Below, piece after piece: positions 6,120 to 18,278 of a stretch of 23,561 nucleotides of DNA (the first letter of the stretch is position 1; each line of letters starts with the position of its first letter). The translations under genes and the position numbers were made by a program. This stretch comes from a bacterium (GTDB lineage: Bacteria > Zhuqueibacterota > QNDG01 > JAFGCO01), in contig JAFGCO010000066.1 in NCBI GenBank assembly GCA_016932575.1, positions 1-23,561 on the forward strand. Direction: 5' to 3'. The notes under the pieces are model-generated. The model was not told where the DNA came from. It made no database searches and was given only the letters and a program-made list of their open reading frames with translations.

Positions 6120-8507
6120 TTGAAAGAAAAGACACAACATCCAGGGATTCAACATTTCGCTGATCACAAAATTCAATATCTTTGTTTGATATTGTTTGTC
6201 GTATTCACGGTTTTGGGATTGTATGTGATCTCCGCTTTAAAAACGTATATCAATGCGGAGGATTCTGTCGCCTGGAACCTGTCCAGATGGATCGATATTA
6301 TTTTTGTCGGATACGGATTTTGTATGCTTTTATTGGTTTTTTGGATGTACCGAATCCGGATGAAACCTCACCAAAAAGTCATTAAAATCGGAAGGAAAAT
6401 TTCATCGGAAGACATGAATGCGGTATCGAGCGCCATTACTGAATTGTCCCAGGGAAATCTATCCAGGCAATTGGAATTCAATACCAAGCCGATAATGACA
6501 GCTGGCCGTGCATCGCGTATGAATGAAATCGTTGATATTTTTAACAGTATGATTCGGAATTTAAAGGACACGGCCCAGGCATTCAATAATGTCACCGGGA
6601 TTCCCTGCAAGCGGCTTTTTTATGTGGGCGCAGATTCATTTTTGGAGGGGCGGTATTGTGGTGAAATTATGGGGAGAATATTGAAAGGCAAAGGATGTGT
6701 GGTTGTTTCGGCCGAATCATTCAGTGCCACCAACCTGGATTTGCGCAGAAGAGGATTTTTAGGCCTGATCAGGGAAAAATATCCGGGGATCGAGGTTGTC
6801 GATTTTGTCGAAGCGAAGGCCGGGGGAGGTCAGGCTTATCGGGCAGCCGTGGAGATTTTAAAAAAGTTTCCCAATCTTTCCGGGATTTATATTGCTTGCG
6901 GCTCGCCTCCGGCCCAGTTTGCCAAGGCCCTTGTTGAATTGCACAAGGCCGGCGCGGTTAAAGTCATTTGTCATGATTTAATGGACGATACGATGCGCTG
7001 GGTGAAAGAAGGTGTGATTACTGCCACATTGAGTCAGAACTCATTTGCCCAGGGATATAATCCGATCATTCATATGTTCAATCACCTGGCTGCGGGGTGG
7101 AAACCGCCCATGCCGTTTCTGCTGACTGAACTTCAGGAAGTCAATCAGGATAATTACCGGGATTTCTGGAGTGAAGAACAGGGGATGATCCTCTCCGCCC
7201 AGGCGAGAGAGCGTATGGCCAAACCCGTGATTGATTCGGCGCCGAAGCCGCTTCGTATGGCTGTTCTGGGAAGAGACGACACAGCTTTCTGGCTGTCTAT
7301 CATGACCGGAAGCCAGGAAGCGGTTAAAGTACTTCAAGGCCATAATGTGACCGTGGATTGTTACGCGCCCAAAGAAGTACATCGGGTTCATGATTTTACC
7401 ATTGAAATATACGGGCCGTTGATTGAACGCATTATTCAGGATAAGTATGACGGCTTAATCACTGTCGCGCCCTTGAAAACATTTATCCCTTATATAAACC
7501 GGGCGGTTGAGGCCGGGATTCCCGTGGGACTTTATAACAGTGATCCCAGCAGCTTGAGGGCAATGATTCATACGGTCACGGAACAGGCACAGCATCTGAT
7601 GGGATTGAGTGAAACCCTGGCTGGCAATACCTATCAAACAAGCCAGGCAACGATGCAGATCAGAACAGCCATAGAGGGAGTCGCTCAGGGGAGCGTGTCT
7701 CAAAATAATCAGATTTCGAAAACAGAGGAAGCGTTGCATAATCTTCTCGATACGATCGAACTGATCAATCGCGAAGCGGAAAAAAGCGCAACGGCTACAG
7801 AAAATACAGCGAAGGCTGTGAGTGCGGGAACGGATGCCATGAATGAGACTCTGAAAACCATGAAAGAGATCGAGACATCCGTGACAAATGCGTGGGGTCT
7901 TGTGGAAGAATTGGGAGCCCATTCTGAAAAAATCGACAGTGTGGTTGAATTGATTAACGATATTGCCTCACGCGTGAATGTGCTTGCGCTGAATGCAAGC
8001 ATCGAAGCCACCAAAGCAGGAGAGTATGGAGCAGGGTTTATGGTTGTGGCAAAGGCCGTTAGGAAACTGGCAAAAAATACTGCAGATGCAACAAGGGAAG
8101 TCACGGATCTGATTCATACAGTACAATCAGACATATCTAAAGTCGAGCGGGTCATGCATGACGGGCTTGCCAGAATGAAACAATCCGCTTCGTTGGCTGA
8201 TCGCGCGGTGACCACTCTCAGTGATATTCAAAAAATGATTCAGTCGGATAAAGAACGCATTTTAAACATTGCCAGGTCCATGGGTAATATGCAAACCACA
8301 TCACATACGGTGGGCACGGCAATGGAAAACGTCGCTTCGGACAGTGAAAACAATATGGCTGCTGTTGAAGAAGTCAGCGCACTGACCAAAGAGATGACCG
8401 CTCAATTGGAAAATGTGACAGAACTTGCCCATGCCCTGGAATTGATGGCACGAAGCGAACAGCAGATGCTGGCCAAGTTTATACTGTTGGAGGAGAAATC
8501 GGAATAA
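6120..8507 (+). CDS. Membrane chemoreceptor-like protein: 2 TM, HAMP-like, permuted PBP1 sugar-binding domain, MCP signalling domain
   Basis: TTG 6120 (behind GGTGG at 6110-6114) gives 795 residues. GTG 6108 and TTG 6027 are alternatives; the residues before 6108 look non-coding. Two transmembrane helices (about 18-40 and 57-79) enclose only a short external loop, followed by a HAMP-like linker (80-155). Residues 164-340 match the second part of a LacI/ribose-type PBP1 domain (YVGAD...GRYCGEIMG, DGTP-like HDLMDD, KEGVITATLSQNSFAQGY). Residues 377-475 match its first lobe (RMAVLGRDDTAFW...GSQEAVK, ending AGIPVGLYNSD). The lobe order is thus reversed. The C-terminal part (about 485-795) is an MCP signalling coiled coil with the conserved hairpin LNASIEATKAGEYGAGF (623-639) and VRKLAKNTADATREV. 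Topology places the binding domain in the cytoplasm. It probably reports a sugar or related ligand to a CheA/CheW array, but no che gene is in the window. Confidence 0.88.
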   Translation: MKEKTQHPGIQHFADHKIQYLCLILFVVFTVLGLYVISALKTYINAEDSVAWNLSRWIDIIFVGYGFCMLLLVFWMYRIRMKPHQKVIKIGRKISSEDMNAVSSAITELSQGNLSRQLEFNTKPIMTAGRASRMNEIVDIFNSMIRNLKDTAQAFNNVTGIPCKRLFYVGADSFLEGRYCGEIMGRILKGKGCVVVSAESFSATNLDLRRRGFLGLIREKYPGIEVVDFVEAKAGGGQAYRAAVEILKKFPNLSGIYIACGSPPAQFAKALVELHKAGAVKVICHDLMDDTMRWVKEGVITATLSQNSFAQGYNPIIHMFNHLAAGWKPPMPFLLTELQEVNQDNYRDFWSEEQGMILSAQARERMAKPVIDSAPKPLRMAVLGRDDTAFWLSIMTGSQEAVKVLQGHNVTVDCYAPKEVHRVHDFTIEIYGPLIERIIQDKYDGLITVAPLKTFIPYINRAVEAGIPVGLYNSDPSSLRAMIHTVTEQAQHLMGLSETLAGNTYQTSQATMQIRTAIEGVAQGSVSQNNQISKTEEALHNLLDTIELINREAEKSATATENTAKAVSAGTDAMNETLKTMKEIETSVTNAWGLVEELGAHSEKIDSVVELINDIASRVNVLALNASIEATKAGEYGAGFMVVAKAVRKLAKNTADATREVTDLIHTVQSDISKVERVMHDGLARMKQSASLADRAVTTLSDIQKMIQSDKERILNIARSMGNMQTTSHTVGTAMENVASDSENNMAAVEEVSALTKEMTAQLENVTELAHALELMARSEQQMLAKFILLEEKSE

Positions 8508-8796
8508 GAATCATATTTGGGTTCGGTTCAAAGAGTCAGGAATTGTGGTATCATAGTTATTTATTTGAAACATTGCAGACTATTTTCCAGCGCTTTCTCA
8601 TCACAACTTTCGCGGTTCCGATAATGTTTTTTTCCTATTGATAATTTATGACAACTTTTTACATGAATATTACATTATCAATCGATTTGCTTTTTAAGTT
8701 AGTACACGGACTGTTTTACAAATAATTCGTGTTCGTCCGGGTGTTTCTGAATGTGATCGCCGGTAAACATCGACTTGATTTCAAGGGGAGGTGCTC

Positions 8797-9942
8797 TTGA
8801 GAGCGCATATATGTTTGAAGCTTTTTGTGACGGCCTTTTTTCTGAGTGTTGCTACGTCATCGGACAGCGCTGATTTGGTTCAGGATAATCCTGTGCTTGC
8901 TCCGGATCTTTCAACTCCACCAATTGTCGATGGTCAAGGCGATGACGCATGCTGGCAGGATCTTTCCTGGCAGAGTATGGATCAGGTATGGATTCCATGG
9001 GGAGGTACGGTGGATTCAGAGGATTATTCCGGACATTACAAAGTTGCCTGGTCGTCTGCAGAAAATGTCCTTTATTTTCTGGTTGAAATCAGTGATGACT
9101 ACCTGGTGGACGGATTTATACCGGCTCATACAGCGGATATTTACAATTTCGATATCATTGAAGTGTTCATTGATGAAGACAATTCCGGAGGATACCATGT
9201 GTTCGACGGGGCCGGTAATGTTGCCCAGCAATACGGGACGAATGCGGAGAATGCATTTGCATATCATATGTACTGTCCGTTTCCCGAGGATGGTCAGGTC
9301 GATGATAATTTATATGTCGGCGATTTGGATGGTACAAGCTGGTCGGATGTCCAGAATCCTAATTATGCCGATCATTTCCCGGCATTCGCTTTACGTAGAA
9401 ATGGCGACACAATCGTCCGGGAATTCTCACTGATGGTATATGATGATACCTATGAAAAAGGTCATGTGGATGCTGCCCGGGTGCAGTTGACTGAAGGCAG
9501 GGAAATCGGCCTCTCTCTGGCTTATTGCGACAATGACGGTATTGATGAAAATCCCAAAACCCGGGATAATTTTTTCGGATCTGTTTGGGTTCCTGCGGTG
9601 AAATTTAATGATCACTGGATCGATGCCGGTGATTTTGGCACTGTGAAGTTAACAGCATCCCCAATGTTTGTTGAGGTGAATAAAATGCCGGTTCAGCAAA
9701 TGCAGGTATTCCCCAATCCCGGGTCGACCAGCCTCCATGTCGAAATGCATAATGACTATTGCGGTGATGTAAAAATTTATCTTTATAATATTTTAGGGCA
9801 GAATGTGCTGCAGACGTCAGCATCAAAAATGAATCCGGTGCTTCAGAAATTACTTTCGCTGCAGCATTTGCCTCAGGGAGTCTATTTTCTGGAAGTGCGG
9901 ATGGGCATTACATTACTCAGGCGGAAAATCATCATTCATTGA
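8797..9942 (+). CDS. Secreted CBM9-like carbohydrate-binding protein with type IX (Por) sorting domain
   Basis: TTG 8797 is chosen over GTG 8791 because GGGGAGG ends at 8791, which would overlap the GTG, and because the next gene also begins TTG AGA GCG (Met-Arg-Ala). The 381-residue product has a signal peptide to about residue 25. A single CBM9-like/DOMON-type beta-sandwich (about 35-290) opens with PPIVDGQGDDACW and contains YKVAWSSAENVLYFLVEISD and IIEVFIDEDNS, both typical of CBM9. A C-terminal Por sorting domain (about 303-381) begins VFPNPGSTSLHVEM and ends GVYFLEVRMG...KIIIH. No catalytic domain is present, so it probably binds polysaccharide at the cell surface or outside. It is paralogous to the following gene. 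Confidence 0.85.
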   Translation: MRAHICLKLFVTAFFLSVATSSDSADLVQDNPVLAPDLSTPPIVDGQGDDACWQDLSWQSMDQVWIPWGGTVDSEDYSGHYKVAWSSAENVLYFLVEISDDYLVDGFIPAHTADIYNFDIIEVFIDEDNSGGYHVFDGAGNVAQQYGTNAENAFAYHMYCPFPEDGQVDDNLYVGDLDGTSWSDVQNPNYADHFPAFALRRNGDTIVREFSLMVYDDTYEKGHVDAARVQLTEGREIGLSLAYCDNDGIDENPKTRDNFFGSVWVPAVKFNDHWIDAGDFGTVKLTASPMFVEVNKMPVQQMQVFPNPGSTSLHVEMHNDYCGDVKIYLYNILGQNVLQTSASKMNPVLQKLLSLQHLPQGVYFLEVRMGITLLRRKIIIH

Positions 9943-10065
9943 TGCTGAAAAGCCGGAGTTTTTATTGCAATTTATCAATGCATTCCATATATTTTTCATT
10001 GTTCAACAGATTCTGACAAACATTATCGTTTAATTTCCATATCGATCTTCTGAAAGGGCAGGATT

Positions 10066-11712
10066 TTGAGAGCGACATTCCCTTTTCAACGAGCCGCTGT
10101 GTCGATTATGTTTTGTTTCGGTTTTTTTGCCCATGCCAAAAATGATGTTTGGCAGGTGCAAAGGGCTGCTTTTCCCCCCGTGATTGACGGTAAGATGGAT
10201 GAGCTCTATAAAACTGCGTCTTCAGAACGTCTTGTGAAGCTGAATGAGGACGATTCTGCGCTCCCTGATAACTATTCTGATCTGTTTGCTCAGGCGCGGT
10301 TATTATGGGATGAAGATAATCTCTATGCGTTTGTGAAAGTCGTGGATGATGAGATCAGCACTGATTCCGAGAATCCGTATGAAAACGACAGCGTTGAGAT
10401 TATGGTGGATGGTAACAACAGCAAGGTATTTCAGGGACGGGATCAGGACGACACCCTGATTCGCATTGAATATCAGGATGCCATGGTTACAGCGGTTGAC
10501 AATGCTCCTGAAGGCATGGCTTTCGCTGTAGCGGATTGTCAATATCCGGCCGGTGCTTCAGGATATGCTGTTGAAGCCGCTTTTCCATTAAATAGTTTAA
10601 ACATAGGCGGTGAGGCAGGCACAATTTTCGGTTTGGAAATCCAGGTCAATGACCGTGACAGCAGAGTTCGTGAGAATGTTATAAGATGGTGGGGCGCAAG
10701 TGATGATGCCTGGTTTTGGGCACATCTTTGGGGTGAGGCCGAATTGACGGATTATATGGCAGATACTGTGTTAACCATTCTTGGCAATTACAGAGGGGCT
10801 CCCGTAATTGATGGGATATTGGATGAACTATGGAAAGATACAGCTCCCGAGATTGATCAGGGCACGTATGTTTTTCTGAATAATGGAATTGGGTGGAATG
10901 GCTATAAGGAATTGGATTTATGGGATGATGCTCAGATGAGTTATCGGGCAATGGTATATGCTGATGCATTTTATTTCTGGTGTGAAGTGATTGATGACGA
11001 AATTAGCACATCGGGTGACGATCCCGGAGAAAATGACGGGATTGTCCTTTACTTTGACGGGGACAACAGTAAGAATAATTTTTCAATGGGTGTGCCATAT
11101 GACGAAAATGATCAGCGATTCAACTGGGTATACGGAACGGAGGAACCGGGCATAACCAATGGAAACGAGGTGCTGGCCTGGAGTGAGCCGGACAGCCTCA
11201 GCGGATATTCATTTGAGTTGATGATTCCGATGTCTGACCTGGCGTTCTATCCGCTGTATGATATTAAAATTGGATTCGAAGTACAAGTCAATGATCGGGA
11301 TCATGAAATCCTTGAGCATATCATCCGATGGTGGGGCAATGATCTCATGTCCTGTCTTGATGCGAGCCGGTTCGGTACGGCTCTTTTATTACCGGTACCC
11401 CCGCCGCCTCCTTCTCCTGCTTTTACGGCATATAACAATATAGGTCCCCACGGATTTGTATTATTCCAGAATTGTCCAAATCCCTTTAATTATTTAACTA
11501 CCATTTCATATTCTTTGCCCGAAATAAGTCAGGTGCGGTTCACGGTTCTTAATATACATGGAGATGAGGTGGCAGTGATGAATGAAGGGGTCAAGCCGCC
11601 CGGGTCATATAATATTCGGTTTGATGCTTCGCAGTTGAGCAGTGGTGTCTATGTATGTCAAATGGAAACCCGTTGCGGAGTCGTGACACAGAAGATGATG
11701 TTGATGAAGTAA
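10066..11712 (+). CDS. Secreted protein with two CBM9-like domains and a type IX (Por) sorting domain
   Basis: Starts at TTG 10066 behind AAAGGGCAGG (10053-10062); 548 residues with a signal peptide ending near AHA at 22-24. Two tandem CBM9-like domains follow, about 30-228 and 238-440. Each opens with PVIDG-x-(M/L)DEL and repeats the motifs DDEIST, the DG-D/N-NSK loop and the (R)ENVIRWWG/EHIIRWWG segment with EVQVNDRD. A proline linker (PVPPPPPSP, 443-451) leads to a Por sorting domain (about 464-548) with FVLFQNCPNPFN and SSGVYVCQMET. Expected role: type IX-exported carbohydrate binding, paired with the gene upstream from which it is separated by 123 bases. No enzyme domain is seen; the ligand is unknown. 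Confidence 0.87.
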   Translation: MRATFPFQRAAVSIMFCFGFFAHAKNDVWQVQRAAFPPVIDGKMDELYKTASSERLVKLNEDDSALPDNYSDLFAQARLLWDEDNLYAFVKVVDDEISTDSENPYENDSVEIMVDGNNSKVFQGRDQDDTLIRIEYQDAMVTAVDNAPEGMAFAVADCQYPAGASGYAVEAAFPLNSLNIGGEAGTIFGLEIQVNDRDSRVRENVIRWWGASDDAWFWAHLWGEAELTDYMADTVLTILGNYRGAPVIDGILDELWKDTAPEIDQGTYVFLNNGIGWNGYKELDLWDDAQMSYRAMVYADAFYFWCEVIDDEISTSGDDPGENDGIVLYFDGDNSKNNFSMGVPYDENDQRFNWVYGTEEPGITNGNEVLAWSEPDSLSGYSFELMIPMSDLAFYPLYDIKIGFEVQVNDRDHEILEHIIRWWGNDLMSCLDASRFGTALLLPVPPPPPSPAFTAYNNIGPHGFVLFQNCPNPFNYLTTISYSLPEISQVRFTVLNIHGDEVAVMNEGVKPPGSYNIRFDASQLSSGVYVCQMETRCGVVTQKMMLMK

Positions 11713-12831: not shown

Positions 12832-13974
12832 TTATTCAGTCTCTTTTTTTTGTATGGATATATCTCCGCCGCATGTTTTTAAGTCAATGGATGGTCCGCC
12901 TCCCTGAATCATGCCGGTAGCCCGTATTTTTGTATCCGTGTCCTCTTCTTTCAGGGACATTTTCAGGGGAAAGTCTGAATATATTTGTTCTTCAGAATAC
13001 CCATACCTTTTTTGAATCTCAACATGAACAGTGGCTTTGATCGATGACGGCAGAGTGAGATCAATGTCTCCCGTACTTGATTCCAGAAGCATGGGTGATT
13101 TGAATGTAACTGCATCTGTAAGCGTTACCTCGATGTCACCCCCCCCGGTTTTAGCAGATAATGATCCGGAAACATCGGTGATTTCAATACAGCCACCGCC
13201 GACTTCGCATTGGGCGTTTCCCTGGATATTGCTAATTTCAATGTCGCCACCGCCGACTTTCAATTGAATGTCCTTCTGAACCTGATCAATTTCCAGGTCA
13301 CCTCCGCCCAGTTCCAGGATTACCGGTCCGGCACATTCTTCAATGTCTGCATCTCCGCCTCCCATCTTAATTTCAATTGGACCATCGGCGTTTTCTATTT
13401 CCAGATCTCCGCCACCCAGATGAATATTGATATCTTTTTTACAGCCTTCAATTTCAATGTCGCCTCCTCCAACATGGAGATCTGTCGGACCCAGCACATG
13501 TGCAATACTTACATCACCGCCCCCGATATGTGCATCGATTTTACCGTCGATTTCCTCAATTTCAAGATCTCCTCCTGAAATCTCAATGTCGCATTGAAAC
13601 TGCTTTGGAACATATATCTCGTAATTGCTATGAATGGCCTGGTTATCGAGTTTGATTCCTTCAATCAGGACCGTATTGGACACATGTTTATAGGTCATAA
13701 GGTGTTTTTTCTTGACAGCTTCAGCCTCGGCTTGTGTGAATACATGAATTTCATGGATGGATTTAATGCCCACCCTGCTTTCATGCCATGAATGAATAGT
13801 AACATCCCCATGGATTTCTGTCATTTTTAACAGACCGCCCGATTTCACGGTGAAGTCTTTTTCAGATTTCCATTGCCAGTGATTTTCCTTATCAATGATT
13901 TCCTGGGCATGTGCGGACATCCACAGCAACATCACTATTGCCGGAATCCATTTGGTCAATCTGTTTGTTTTCAT
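12832..13974 (-). CDS. Exported DUF4097-type beta-solenoid protein, third gene of ECF operon 1
   Basis: 380 residues; ATG at 13974 with GGAGAC seven bases upstream. The signal peptide ends about AHA-QE (residues 21-25). From about 128 to 289 the protein consists of nine repeats of exactly 18 residues built on GGGD-(I/L)-E-I. The Asp falls at 136, 154, 172, 190, 208, 226, 244, (Cys262) and 280, and further GD turns follow at 303 and 371. This is the DUF4097 putative-adhesin family and should fold as a right-handed beta-helix in the envelope. It is the last gene after an ECF sigma and its anti-sigma factor and is probably a target or modulator of that envelope response. Molecular function of the family is not established. 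Confidence 0.85.
   Translation of the reverse strand: MKTNRLTKWIPAIVMLLWMSAHAQEIIDKENHWQWKSEKDFTVKSGGLLKMTEIHGDVTIHSWHESRVGIKSIHEIHVFTQAEAEAVKKKHLMTYKHVSNTVLIEGIKLDNQAIHSNYEIYVPKQFQCDIEISGGDLEIEEIDGKIDAHIGGGDVSIAHVLGPTDLHVGGGDIEIEGCKKDINIHLGGGDLEIENADGPIEIKMGGGDADIEECAGPVILELGGGDLEIDQVQKDIQLKVGGGDIEISNIQGNAQCEVGGGCIEITDVSGSLSAKTGGGDIEVTLTDAVTFKSPMLLESSTGDIDLTLPSSIKATVHVEIQKRYGYSEEQIYSDFPLKMSLKEEDTDTKIRATGMIQGGGPSIDLKTCGGDISIQKKETE
13108..13593 (-). repeat. 54-base periodic repeat encoding nine 18-residue solenoid coils
   Basis: Codons for residues 128-289 of the DUF4097 protein. The period is exactly 54 bases with no insertion or deletion. On the plus strand it appears as recurring blocks such as tcaccgccccc, cgccaccgccgac and ctccgccaccc. 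The repeat in which Cys262 replaces Asp is the eighth. Confidence 0.85.
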
Positions 13975-14000
13975 TGCGAAGTCTCCTTTATTAATCGATT

Positions 14001-14924
14001 TTATTCTCGCCTGACATTTAATGCCTGTCTGGATTTTTCTGCATCCAGCACATATTGTATATATTCATCTTTTTCTGCTCGTTTTTCCAAGATGGACTGT
14101 ATTTCAGGATCATTGGACTGGATCAGTTTTTCAGTGACCTGGATCCGGATCCCCGGATTGGTATCCTGAAAAAGAACACGAATGAGCAGTGATTTCATTT
14201 TATCGTTTATGGGAAAATGTTTTAATAGTTTAATGGCTCGATAGCGCAATCCGGGATTGGGATCGTTCGCCAGAGTATGCAGCAATGCTTCTTCCACTGT
14301 CTCATTGTGAGACACTGTTTGAATCATGTCCATAGAGCGAAGACGCAGGTTGTCCCTTTCATCGGTCATTAATGCATAAGCCAGCAGGGTTTGGATATCA
14401 GGATCCTGAATTTCGCCCTGGATCCTTTTTTCGTTTTGATTCAGGAATCGGATTTCGATACGATCCGGGTGGGTTTCGGAAGGAATAATCCGGAACGATC
14501 CGGCCGACGCAGAGGCAAGTTCCGTCAGGAGGGCACGATTTGAAGCTCTGAATCCTATGGGCCAAAAATAATGCCCAACAAATATACCGGCGATCAGAAA
14601 GCACATGGCAGTGACCAGCCGTTTGGTTTCAATGCGGGAAGGGATACGTGATAAAATGGCCTCGAAGAATTGTGTCCGTTTTTTCGCTGCCTGCTTCCCG
14701 AGCAGAGCTTTAAACCGGTTTCTGGCCCGGATCAGAGATTCATTTTCTGTATGGTATAATGATTCCTGATGGAAAAGCCCCAGCCATTGTTTCATTTGCA
14801 TGCTACGAATTCTGCATTCATCGCATCTGTCGAGGTGATATTCAATATCCGCCATTTCCTGAAATGAAAGCTCGTGGATTAAATAGAGAAATAATTGCTC
14901 TTCATTGATATGTGGGTTTGACAT
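14001..14924 (-). CDS. zf-HC2 anti-sigma factor with periplasmic HEAT-like repeats, ECF operon 1
   Basis: 307 residues; start ATG 14924 behind AGAGGG (14931-14936), 12 bases after the sigma gene. The N-terminal cytoplasmic zinc-binding anti-sigma domain shows His30-Leu-Asp-Arg-Cys34-Asp-Glu-Cys37, the zf-HC2 signature. One transmembrane helix covers about 103-121. The outside part carries helical HEAT-like repeats (about 170-285) recognisable by NPGLRYRAIKLLKHF and NPGIRIQVTEKLIQS. It should hold the co-encoded sigma factor inactive until a signal is sensed. HEAT repeats on an anti-sigma factor suggest a protein-protein contact in the periplasm, perhaps with the DUF4097 product encoded 26 bases downstream. 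The partner is inference. Confidence 0.85.
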   Translation of the reverse strand: MSNPHINEEQLFLYLIHELSFQEMADIEYHLDRCDECRIRSMQMKQWLGLFHQESLYHTENESLIRARNRFKALLGKQAAKKRTQFFEAILSRIPSRIETKRLVTAMCFLIAGIFVGHYFWPIGFRASNRALLTELASASAGSFRIIPSETHPDRIEIRFLNQNEKRIQGEIQDPDIQTLLAYALMTDERDNLRLRSMDMIQTVSHNETVEEALLHTLANDPNPGLRYRAIKLLKHFPINDKMKSLLIRVLFQDTNPGIRIQVTEKLIQSNDPEIQSILEKRAEKDEYIQYVLDAEKSRQALNVRRE

Positions 14925-14936
14925 GGTGCTGCCCTC

Positions 14937-15521
14937 TTATCTTTCATGCATATATTTCAACAGATAACGGCGTATTTTTTGTGTGCTTCGAAACAGGGTG
15001 TTTTTTACAGTGCCCTCGGAACAACTGATAATCTCGGCGATGTCTTTGATTTTGAAGTCCTGATAGAACCGCAAAAGAAATATCGTACGTTGAATGACTG
15101 TCAACCGGTCCATAGCCTCCTGAATCTGATCCTGAATTTCCTGATTGATTGTCAGTTCATCAGGCAGTGGATTTTCATCCGCTGGTGTCCAGGATGTGTC
15201 ATCTGTCTGGTCGTCAGCGATCCAGGTGCGATTGAGGTGTTTGTTCCGCGTTTTTCGGTAATTGATTGCTGTATTCACCACAATTCGGTAAAGCCAGGTT
15301 TCAAAGGTGCTTTGAAAACGAAATGTGTGAATTTTTTTATACACGCGCATAAACACTTCCTGATAAACATCCTCGGTATCCTGCAGATTGCCCAGCATTT
15401 GCCGGGCCAATCCCAGTACTTTCTGATCATGCTCCTGAACCAGAAGTTGAAAAGACTCGGTATCTCCCTTTTGCGCCTTCCGGATCAGATCATTTGTTCT
15501 TTTTCTCTCAGGCTCTGTCAT
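14937..15521 (-). CDS. ECF RNA polymerase sigma factor, operon 1
   Basis: 194 residues with sigma70 region 2 (about 25-95: DTEDVYQEVFMRVYKKIHTF, FETWLYRIVVNTAINYRK) and region 4 (about 135-190: LTVIQRTIFLLRFYQDFKIKDIAEI, SEGTVKNTLFR), joined by an acidic linker. It directs polymerase to extracytoplasmic-function promoters and is followed by its anti-sigma gene. The ATG at 15521 has no recognisable Shine-Dalgarno sequence. An ECF-like promoter ends only about 10 bases upstream, so the mRNA may be nearly leaderless. Not assigned to a named ECF group. Confidence 0.92.
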   Translation of the reverse strand: MTEPERKRTNDLIRKAQKGDTESFQLLVQEHDQKVLGLARQMLGNLQDTEDVYQEVFMRVYKKIHTFRFQSTFETWLYRIVVNTAINYRKTRNKHLNRTWIADDQTDDTSWTPADENPLPDELTINQEIQDQIQEAMDRLTVIQRTIFLLRFYQDFKIKDIAEIISCSEGTVKNTLFRSTQKIRRYLLKYMHER

Positions 15522-15530
15522 TTTTCAAAA

Positions 15531-15562
15531 TATTAGACAAAAGTTAACAGAATAAGGTTTGC
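15531..15562 (-). promoter_or_regulatory. ECF-type promoter of sigma operon 1 (probable autoregulation)
   Basis: On the minus strand: GCAAACCTT (15562-15554), then TGTCTAATA (15539-15531), with 17 bases between AAC and TGTC. The AAC...N16-17...(C/T)GTC layout is typical of ECF sigma promoters and resembles the one before the second sigma gene. The predicted start point is only a few bases ahead of the ATG at 15521. Confidence 0.5.
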
Positions 15563-15595
15563 ATCAATGTGAAACATTTTTAAGTAAAAGGCAAG

Positions 15596-15628
15596 AAAAA
15601 AGCCTCTCGGGTTTCAAGAGGCTTTTTT
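15596..15628 (-). terminator. Bidirectional terminator between the two ECF operons
   Basis: AAAAAAGCCTCT pairs with AGAGGCTTTTTT; the GC core is 15602-15607 with 15617-15622 and the loop is about nine bases. It lies 188 bases past the stop of the last gene of operon 2 and immediately before the promoter of operon 1, so it insulates the two units. Confidence 0.88.
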
Positions 15629-15815
15629 CGGGGATATTGGAGAAGGCATCAGAGTGAGATCATCATCATTTTATTTGGTTTATTAAATACTGAGATTTAA
15701 ATATTATTTTCCATTCGGATTGTTACATTTGGAATTTCACCTCGTTAAATTGGCCAGAGATTCAATTATCTGTATCCGTCCGACAGGGAAAAGAATCAAG
15801 ACTCCTCTATGGATA

Positions 15816-16979
15816 TTACATATATTGCAGAACCAGTTTATTTTTTAATGAGTTTAAACTGATTTTTCCCTGATTATAGGCGTCCAGGTCACGTTTGGTC
15901 AATTGCATACGTATCGAAGAAGGGTTGCCGGAATCCTGGCCAAAGAATAAAATCCTTGGTCCTACAGTTACTTCAACGATAAATTGTTCCTCAGGTTTGA
16001 CCTGAAGCGTATGACCATAGGAAGCCATCAGATCGAACAGCTCGTCGCTCATATTTTGCAATAGCAAGCGGGTATCTGTTTCTTCTGCGGAACCTTGGGC
16101 ATTGGCAGTTAAACTGTAACCCGAAAGTGCGTCTCCACGATTATGAATTACAATCGAAAAAGACGTGTCGAGATTTCCGAATCGAAATCCGGGCTGGATA
16201 TCCATAAACAGCAGCGCTCCCAGTCCGTTGAGATACAATCCTGATGTGGATGAATAGTGCGGCTCTTTTGATGTAGCCATTGCCTGATCGAATATTTCTG
16301 TCATAATATCAATATCTTTTGCAATTGAGGCATCACCTGCATTTATATCAAAATGAATATTTGACTGTAAATGGTGATTATTCCCATGAGATTGCCTGAG
16401 TGCTTCTGCATGCTTTTGTCTGATCCAGGCAGTGATGAAACTGTTTTCCTGTGTCAGTGACCACCATCCGTTGAGATGCACCAGTACTGCGATTCGGTCG
16501 TTATCTTTCAGCATTGAGATAGAAGGCGCATAGTGGCTGAAGAACTCGGTGATCCCGGATTTAATGGCTTCAATGGATTCTTTTTCCAGCGTTTCCGTCT
16601 TCTTTTGGAACTCGGCCAGATTACTGTCTGAAAAAAGCCAGTTCTGCTGTTTTTCCACTTTTTTATTGAATTTGTTTCCGTTTGCCATCATTTGGCCGAT
16701 GTTTTTGTCCAGGGTCGGCAGCATCACCGGGTGATAAGGCTGTGGTTTTTCCATATAAAAAACCATCCCGTAATCAGGTATGTAGATTCCCCTTGAGTTT
16801 CCTGTGAATCGCATGTTTATATTATCCTGATCCAGTAGTTTATCGAGAACGCTTTCCATGATTTTCATGTCTCGTTTCAATCGAAATGTATCGATCTGAG
16901 CAGATTGTCCATGAAGAACAGCGGGTGAAAAGGCCACCAATAAATAGACGATTATGATCAATTGATAACGTTGAAGCAT
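15816..16979 (-). CDS. Exported protein of unknown function, third gene of ECF operon 2
   Basis: 387 residues; ATG 16979 with AAGGAAC just upstream and a signal peptide (IIIVYLLVAFSPAVLHG, cleavage near residues 24-26). After that it is soluble, with a helical charged segment at about 105-150 (NKFNKKVEKQQNW, KKTETLEKESIEAIKSG) and a beta-rich C-terminal half. No catalytic motif or named domain is recognised. It follows the operon 2 anti-sigma factor by 26 bases and occupies the same place as the DUF4097 gene in operon 1. It is therefore probably an envelope protein made under the ECF response. Function unknown. Confidence 0.75.
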   Translation of the reverse strand: MLQRYQLIIIVYLLVAFSPAVLHGQSAQIDTFRLKRDMKIMESVLDKLLDQDNINMRFTGNSRGIYIPDYGMVFYMEKPQPYHPVMLPTLDKNIGQMMANGNKFNKKVEKQQNWLFSDSNLAEFQKKTETLEKESIEAIKSGITEFFSHYAPSISMLKDNDRIAVLVHLNGWWSLTQENSFITAWIRQKHAEALRQSHGNNHHLQSNIHFDINAGDASIAKDIDIMTEIFDQAMATSKEPHYSSTSGLYLNGLGALLFMDIQPGFRFGNLDTSFSIVIHNRGDALSGYSLTANAQGSAEETDTRLLLQNMSDELFDLMASYGHTLQVKPEEQFIVEVTVGPRILFFGQDSGNPSSIRMQLTKRDLDAYNQGKISLNSLKNKLVLQYM

Positions 16980-17005
16980 CTGTTCCTTCTTTCTTTTTCA
17001 TGTAT

Positions 17006-17686
17006 TTAAGGCTGTGAGTCGGGAGAGCTGGTCATTCGGATCAGATCATTGATCAGGGTACTGGTCTGGTGATAGCGTCCTTCTGTCTGGCGATGCAGTC
17101 CCTGCAGTCCCTGGCCTACCAGCTGTAAATCCTGTTGTCGCCTTAATTCTTGCTGCTGAGAGAATTCGTTCAGGGCTAAGCTGAAATCCCGACGCTGACG
17201 TGCTTCACTTTCTTGAATCAGGGTCACCAGTTGTTCCATATTTCTCGATTGCAGCTCGGACAACTTTGTTTCCAATTTCGCTTCCATTTTTGCTTCAATC
17301 TGCGATTTGCTGGGCCCGTTTTTGCCAAAAGCGATTTGCCAGTTTCCATTTTCATATTTCACCTGGAAATGAAAGATAAACAAAAAAATGACGGCCGCAC
17401 TGGCCAGCACCGGAATGCTCCACGCCAGAGGCTTTTCTGTGTATCGCCGAATTTTATCTTTCCAGGATTGCCAGATTGTTGCCGGTTCATGGATAAAGAC
17501 TGTCTTCATGGCCGGCGTTTCGTCTTCCCACTGACCGAGTAAATTTGTGGTTTGCTGAAGTTCCTGGAAAATTTTCCGGCAAGTCGTGCAGCCTTCAAGG
17601 TGCTTTCGGACTTTTTTTTCGTCTTTTAGATCCAGTTCGTCATACAAAAGAGAAATCAGTGTTTCCGGCGCCATATCACATTTCAT
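17006..17686 (-). CDS. zf-HC2 anti-sigma factor with C-terminal coiled coil, ECF operon 2
   Basis: 226 residues. The start ATG at 17686 lies inside the sigma gene (11-base overlap), so translation is probably coupled. The zinc motif is His29-Leu-Glu-Gly-Cys33-Thr-Thr-Cys36. A single transmembrane helix (about 89-107, IPVLASAAVIFLFIFHF) separates it from an external domain. That domain is mostly a long charged coiled coil (about 126-200: IEAKMEAKLETKLSELQSR, then QQQELRRQQDLQLVGQGL). It should sequester the co-encoded sigma factor; the coiled coil may mediate oligomerisation or contact with an envelope partner. Confidence 0.85.
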   Translation of the reverse strand: MKCDMAPETLISLLYDELDLKDEKKVRKHLEGCTTCRKIFQELQQTTNLLGQWEDETPAMKTVFIHEPATIWQSWKDKIRRYTEKPLAWSIPVLASAAVIFLFIFHFQVKYENGNWQIAFGKNGPSKSQIEAKMEAKLETKLSELQSRNMEQLVTLIQESEARQRRDFSLALNEFSQQQELRRQQDLQLVGQGLQGLHRQTEGRYHQTSTLINDLIRMTSSPDSQP

Positions 17687-18278
17687 GGAGCAACACCTCC
17701 TTACTTAAATTGGATTCCTCCAGTACTTTTTTCATGGCTCGAAGCCCATAATACAGACGGGATTTAACCGTGTTGATCGGCTCGTTCAGTATATCTGCAA
17801 TTTCTGTAAATTTAAGTCCCTGATACTGTTTCATAACGATTACCACTCGTTGTTCGTCGGGTATTTTCTTTAGTGCATTCTTTATAATTGATTCCACTTG
17901 CTGATGCTGCATGAGATCTTCCGGAGACCGCGCTGAGCGGTCCTGAAATTGCCATTTGACCCGATTTTGATTCGTATCTTCGTCGGTAAGCGCATCGAAC
18001 GATACAAGACGACGGATTCGCTTTTTTTTGAATTCGTCTTTACATAAATTGAGTGCAATACGGTAAACCCACGAAGAAAATTTTTCAGGATCCTTTAATG
18101 TTTTTAATTGTTTGTACATGCGTATAAATACCGATTGACACAAATCTTTGGCAAGTTCTCTGTTCCCAATGGTCCGGAGAACGAAATTATATATTGGTTT
18201 TTCCCAGCGCCAAATCAACGTGTTAAAAGCATTGATATCGCCGTTTAAATATCGCTCGATTAATGCAGCGTCTGTCAT
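17676..18278 (-). CDS. ECF RNA polymerase sigma factor, operon 2
   Basis: 200 residues with region 2 (about 22-90: ELAKDLCQSVFIRMYKQLKTL, FSSWVYRIALNLCKDEFKKK) and region 4 (about 132-188: IPDEQRVVIVMKQYQGLKFTEIADIL, INTVKSRLYYGLRAMKK). The two regions are linked by about 40 polar residues. The gene is first in its operon, overlaps the anti-sigma gene and is preceded by a good ECF-type promoter, so autoregulation is likely. It is clearly distinct from the sigma factor of operon 1, so the duplication is old or the two were recruited separately. Confidence 0.92.
   Translation of the reverse strand: MTDAALIERYLNGDINAFNTLIWRWEKPIYNFVLRTIGNRELAKDLCQSVFIRMYKQLKTLKDPEKFSSWVYRIALNLCKDEFKKKRIRRLVSFDALTDEDTNQNRVKWQFQDRSARSPEDLMQHQQVESIIKNALKKIPDEQRVVIVMKQYQGLKFTEIADILNEPINTVKSRLYYGLRAMKKVLEESNLSKEVLLHEM

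Follow-up and report, generated by a model that had tools for sequence, protein, structure and literature searches.

The window analysed here is a stretch of 23,561 nucleotides of bacterial DNA (contig JAFGCO010000066.1 of assembly GCA_016932575.1, phylum Zhuqueibacterota). At 6120..8507 on its forward strand, which holds all features of the gene described below, lies an open reading frame for a chemoreceptor of the MCP type, recognised from the list of open reading frames and by Pfam. The frame is open from TTG 6027; the start at TTG 6120, which gives a protein of 795 amino acids, follows the numbering of an earlier note on this DNA. The protein begins with two transmembrane helices, residues 21-39 (6180..6236, seen by hydropathy and as a helix in the AlphaFold2 model) and residues 58-76 (6291..6347, seen by hydropathy), joined by a loop of 18 residues. 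A divergent HAMP-like segment follows (residues 80-159, 6357..6596), the second helix of which, residues 132-159, continues in the model into a sensor made of two blocks. The first block comprises residues 162-345 (6603..7154; Pfam, PDB profile, local HMMs and model), the junction linker residues 346-371 (7155..7232; deduced from comparison with a secreted relative) and the second block residues 372-476 (7233..7547; Pfam, PDB profile and BLASTP). Signalling helices leaving the hinge and the MCP hairpin occupy the remainder (7548..8504; Pfam and model), including the MCPsignal domain at residues 586-740 (7875-8339; PF00015, whole-protein E=4e-35), which is present in 35/35 aligned members of the family. 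In the model, a pair of HAMP-like helices precedes the sensor, which a long helix leaves at residue 479.

The 20 residues after the second transmembrane helix carry a net charge of +7, read as inside, and hydropathy detects no further hydrophobic segment beyond this helix in the window receptor. Since two transmembrane helices precede the sensor and none follows, the permuted domain described below is cytoplasmic, and the same topology was found by hydropathy in 40 of 50 members. The placement proposed in the earlier note, on the cytoplasmic side between HAMP and MCP modules, is thus upheld, with the HAMP assignment resting on the model and on relatives: PF00672 matches this segment in 16 of 26 members and gives no significant match in the window protein itself.

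The sensor was read in the earlier note as a single complete PBP1 domain in permuted order, and this is borne out by the order of HMM matches, by a fold search and by about 40 homologues of the same architecture. Peripla_BP_4 matches residues 162-321 with profile positions 92-252 of 258 (Pfam, whole protein E=2e-32) and the later block, submitted as a 132-residue fragment from 7203, with positions 46-103 (E=1e-6), so that the model positions appear in the swapped order that the earlier note had suggested looking for. The same swap is seen against the glucose-binding protein of Thermotoga maritima (2qvc/2h3h), which has the same halves in N-C order and the same pocket core: the first block corresponds to chain positions 98-254 and the second to 3-92, and the second block alone reaches an i-E of 1.8e-9 against this protein with a profile of 35 relatives. 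In BLASTP comparisons with normal-order secreted relatives, the first block matches their C-terminal part at about 35-45% identity (E of about 1e-32 to 1e-44) and the second block their N-terminal part at about 33-41% identity (E of about 1e-13 to 1e-20). The window MCP is therefore confirmed to carry one complete type I PBP (Peripla_BP_4) domain, circularly permuted, between the HAMP-like linker and the signalling rod.

The AlphaFold2 model of the sensor, a monomer without ligand, is confident and compact (mean pLDDT 87.6, pTM 0.83) and has a permuted fold. In a structure search, which stands in for a permutation-aware alignment, normal-order PBPs superpose on the first block only (about 190 residues, model positions ~27-224). 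Among the chains listed, TpMglB-2 (6bgc/6bgd/5jx2) is the only one that aligns along most of the model, with 283 residues for 6bgc (Z 22.3, 3.5 A, model 19-330). The first block, the counterpart of the last two thirds of a normal PBP1, contains the C-lobe together with the returning strands, and the second, the counterpart of its N-terminal third, contains N-lobe strands 1-4 and stops at the first hinge, between NSD and PSSLR. The reversed lobe order announced in the earlier note therefore holds in that the halves are swapped; because the first block also holds N-lobe strands that normally return late in the chain, the chain has been circularly permuted at the first hinge, and its two lobes have not simply changed places.

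Several other explanations were rejected. That the two blocks match by chance is contradicted by the Pfam, PDB-profile, family-profile and BLASTP matches, and two degenerate PBP copies by local HMMs that find each half profile once. A single, normally ordered PBP in the first block, which the earlier note had named as a possible objection together with a further membrane crossing, is incompatible with a match that covers no more than profile positions 92-252 and, in solved structures, the C-lobe part. An assembly artefact is contradicted by the number of distinct homologous receptors (41).

A scan of 84,980 species genomes yielded 56 loci, in which the order of blocks was scored with local HMMs for the two PBP halves and the MCP domain. 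The order C-N-MCP was found in all 41 distinct MCP-fused receptors, the window protein included, and all are cut at the same hinge, with a linker of 19-27 residues and near-full cover of both half profiles; one of them ends at a contig edge. These MCP-fused members come from KSB1, Chitinivibrionales, Chloroflexota and one Acidobacteria-named bin. The window genome holds three paralogues with the same layout. At E<=1e-30 the sensor was found in 10 of 82 genomes of the phylum, including 8 of the 12 genomes of its own order (the window genome counted), one of which is a MAG named candidate division KSB1. One member comes from an isolate, Leptolinea tardivitalis YMTK-2 (L084), and another is encoded by a plasmid of 212 kb in Leptolinea sp. 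HRD-7 (L075, AP024711.1). In two permuted receptors (L064 and L068) the MCP match ends early, after ~60-70 residues, and these genes are possibly truncated or frameshifted.

All 11 free secreted relatives are unpermuted: nine are single proteins of N-C order, in which the N-terminus, wherever present, shows a signal peptide or lipobox (assigned by eye), and two are tandem proteins of the order N-C-N-C. The secreted CUT2 proteins of Chloroflexota and Spirochaetota (L077-L087) have the same halves and the same pocket core as the receptors, but they are not receptors themselves and lie beside ABC permease and ATPase genes. Permuted receptor and secreted protein were never found together in the ten genomes checked, and the 199 genomes of the class of genome G059 yielded two secreted relatives and no permuted receptor.

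The two tandem proteins (L070:4842-6884 and L071:4797-6959) each consist of two nearly identical complete copies, and their genes each adjoin a permease-like and an ATPase-like ABC transporter gene. The C-N arrangement of the receptors spans their copy junction, although these proteins are secreted, hold two complete copies and lack an MCP domain. The window sensor aligns unbroken across the junction in both (39% over 338 columns in L070). The copies share 98-99% DNA identity within a gene and 73% between the L070 and L071 genes, so they represent either separate recent events or copies kept alike by conversion. As judged from these sequences, the two proteins show that the intermediate type occurs; being recent duplications, neither is put forward as the ancestor. 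The receptor linker resembles the C-terminus of a secreted protein (VTxxNxxxFW) joined to a mature N-terminus (KPVD..KPLRIAVLG), and the cut in the receptors lies at the first hinge, between FNSE and xxxRLFYVGAD. The simplest reading would be that a secreted CUT2-type protein was duplicated in tandem and that the outer half of each copy was then lost, which would leave a C-terminal half, a linker and an N-terminal half, with both chain ends at the first hinge.

A tree was built on rejoined halves with six more distant SBPs as outside group. All receptors fall on one side of a single branch (bootstrap 87, SH-aLRT 96; the group appears in 86% of bootstraps) next to the secreted proteins (92/99), and the six distant SBPs fall outside (100/100). 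The C-block tree alone recovers the receptor group (96), and the short N-block tree alone does not. The tree favours, with moderate support, one permutation event in a secreted CUT2 sugar-binding protein. Taken with the domain order and the topology, we put the probability at roughly 80% that the gene encodes a membrane-anchored chemoreceptor with a predicted sensor inside the cell, formed by a circularly permuted type I sugar-binding-protein domain that descends from a secreted CUT2-type protein. As a rule, a natural circular permutation is deduced from its end states. In this family an unpermuted parent clade and tandem duplicates survive alongside about 40 permuted descendants, which allows duplication and trimming to be traced in sequence, and a secreted transport protein is seen recruited as an intracellular sensor.

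Conservation of the ligand pocket was scored on an alignment to E. coli RbsB for 50 receptor rows, some of which duplicate one record. The RbsB sequence used agrees with 1urp/2dri over residues 1-271, and the pocket positions follow the numbering in general use. R141 is kept in 50/50 rows, F15, D104, D215 and Q235 in 49/50 each and N89 in 48/50; position 16 is Trp or Phe in 49/50, with W16 also among the positions kept in 43-50 of the 50. Position 214 is His in 49/50 receptors as opposed to Phe or Tyr in 13/13 secreted rows. Because the core residues are kept and F214H is nearly fixed, these comparisons suggest a working pocket of the sugar type with altered specificity. A competing explanation accepts the domain's origin as a permuted PBP but supposes that it no longer binds a ligand and acts in the rod only as a structural spacer or a protein-docking platform. 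Positions 13, 164 and 190 would fit such a role, as the receptors depart there from the secreted relatives and are not uniform among themselves, but the conservation of the six core residues and the nearly uniform change at position 214 speak against it, and we regard it as improbable.

For a sensor with a working pocket, the points of chain entry and exit offer a possible route to the output. In the model the HAMP-like helix would lead into the C-lobe, while the signalling helix would leave from N-lobe strand 4, and by comparison with the parent protein these two points appear to be neighbours at its first hinge. A cytoplasmic ligand, probably a sugar or a sugar-like metabolite, would close the clamp; since the entry and exit points adjoin at the parent's first hinge, closure would shift the entering and leaving helices against each other, and this shift would control a CheA/CheW complex encoded elsewhere in the genome. 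We infer in this way a chain of ligand binding, clamp closure, helix displacement and kinase control. Going one step further, and with odds that we hold to be slightly better than even, the permutation itself may be the signalling device: cutting at the hinge would let the clamp interrupt a continuous helix, each lobe holding one helix end, so that closure drives the rod. The receptors would then form a class of inline hinge-spliced Venus-flytrap chemoreceptors, which arose a single time when a secreted transport protein was duplicated, trimmed and moved inside the cell. Entry and exit of the signalling helix at the hinge of the clamp point to a mechanical reason for the permutation that can be tested, and the isolate member makes both ligand and mechanism accessible to experiment.

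MCPs are homodimers, and a linker of 19-27 residues might permit exchange between chains. The clamp could thus be formed by a domain swap, in which the first block of one chain pairs with the second block of the other chain in the dimer. The monomer, which is modelled as a confident and compact fold, points the other way, and a swapped clamp seems to us about as unlikely as a spacer without ligand.

Circular permutation of a type I PBP has one precedent among the systems found. TpMglB-2 (Tp0684) of Treponema pallidum was described as a 'Type Ic' circularly permuted glucose-binding protein, in which three N-lobe strands have moved to the C-terminus (PMC4990184; PDB 5jx2, 6bgc, 6bgd). The two share the permuted fold, with N-lobe strands 1-3 C-terminal in both. 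The cut in TpMglB-2, however, falls between N-lobe strands 3 and 4 and precedes that of the receptor by one strand; four strands are moved in the receptor, the fourth of which (model 335-338) is C-terminal and lies beyond the range 19-330 aligned with TpMglB-2. TpMglB-2 is moreover a periplasmic ABC-transporter lipoprotein without MCP fusion, and its identity to the cytoplasmic, MCP-fused sensor is 13%. The receptor sensor is not filed as a 'Type Ic' member because cut, location, fusion and sequence all differ. That the permutation was inherited from solute-binding proteins of the TpMglB-2 type rather than having arisen afresh is very unlikely: it would account for the only fold listed from the PDB that aligns along most of the domain, but the strand counts and the low identity contradict it. 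TpMglB-2 also lies outside the best 60 PDB matches of the family profile, with which the normal-order T. maritima protein scores 5e-48, and the sequences found to be closest belong to secreted proteins of normal order. An extracytoplasmic domain, reached by an unrecognised membrane crossing, would agree with the secreted nature of all unpermuted close relatives but can be practically dismissed, as the stretch from sensor to MCP hairpin is free of hydrophobic segments in 49 of 50 members, the single extra peak lies within the sensor and the hairpin must meet cytoplasmic CheW/CheA.

The earlier note had set the receptor against PBP-linked chemotaxis through periplasmic binding proteins. This contrast stands in so far as no MCP with a permuted PBP between HAMP and rod was found in the open-access literature searched; TpMglB-2, the only precedent found there for the permutation, had gone unnamed. 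MCPs with a cytoplasmic sensor after the HAMP domain exist, as do transcription factors of the LacI/XylR type with cytoplasmic PBP1 sensors, and in both a cytoplasmic ligand-sensing domain is coupled to an output, as proposed here. A protein of Rhodopirellula baltica (PDB 5er3) also seems to be circularly permuted in nature, at yet another cut: its chain positions 275-328 correspond to sensor positions 9-62, and 32-267 to profile positions 94-339.

Chemosensory partners are encoded in the window genome in one cluster (L116:4482-13236), with two CheW proteins, CheR, CheB and a CheA-like kinase of the layout Hpt-HATPase-CheW-receiver. As neither flagellin nor the CheA dimerisation domain PF02895 was detected in this genome, the output may be pili/twitching or another process rather than swimming. 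A CUT2 permease (PF02653) was likewise not detected in the genome; given this and the separate occurrence of receptor and secreted protein, the receptor does not appear to act through a CUT2-type transporter. The genome is 94.5% complete, which makes these absences strong but not absolute. At L117:2614-6000 (reverse strand) in the same genome, a Reg_prop and Y_Y_Y propeller is fused to an MCP signalling domain, with a similar open reading frame in L118; this propeller is usually met in hybrid two-component sensors.

Genes of the GH31 and GH13 type lie upstream of the receptor in the window, and the earlier note had placed its proposed sugar or metabolite sensor in a glycosidase neighbourhood. 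Among the paralogues and homologues inspected, none was seen to have these glycosidases as neighbours, and the neighbourhood therefore says little on the ligand. Deriving the ligand from gene neighbourhood was rejected, the operon of the secreted relatives naming no substrate either. This operon, which recurs in L078, L086, L071 and relatives, holds genes for a CUT2 permease, SBP, ATPase, DUF4380 protein (mutarotase-like), creatininase and MtaA/URO-D-like methyltransferase. Downstream of the receptor, positions 8791-11712 of the window encode two CBM9-like proteins with Por_Secre_tail sorting domains. Further on, positions 12835-18278 of the reverse strand hold two open reading frames whose translations resemble sigma factors, a putative anti-sigma or zf-HC2-type protein behind each of them (zf-HC2 was matched), and a DUF4097 protein with GGGD repeats.
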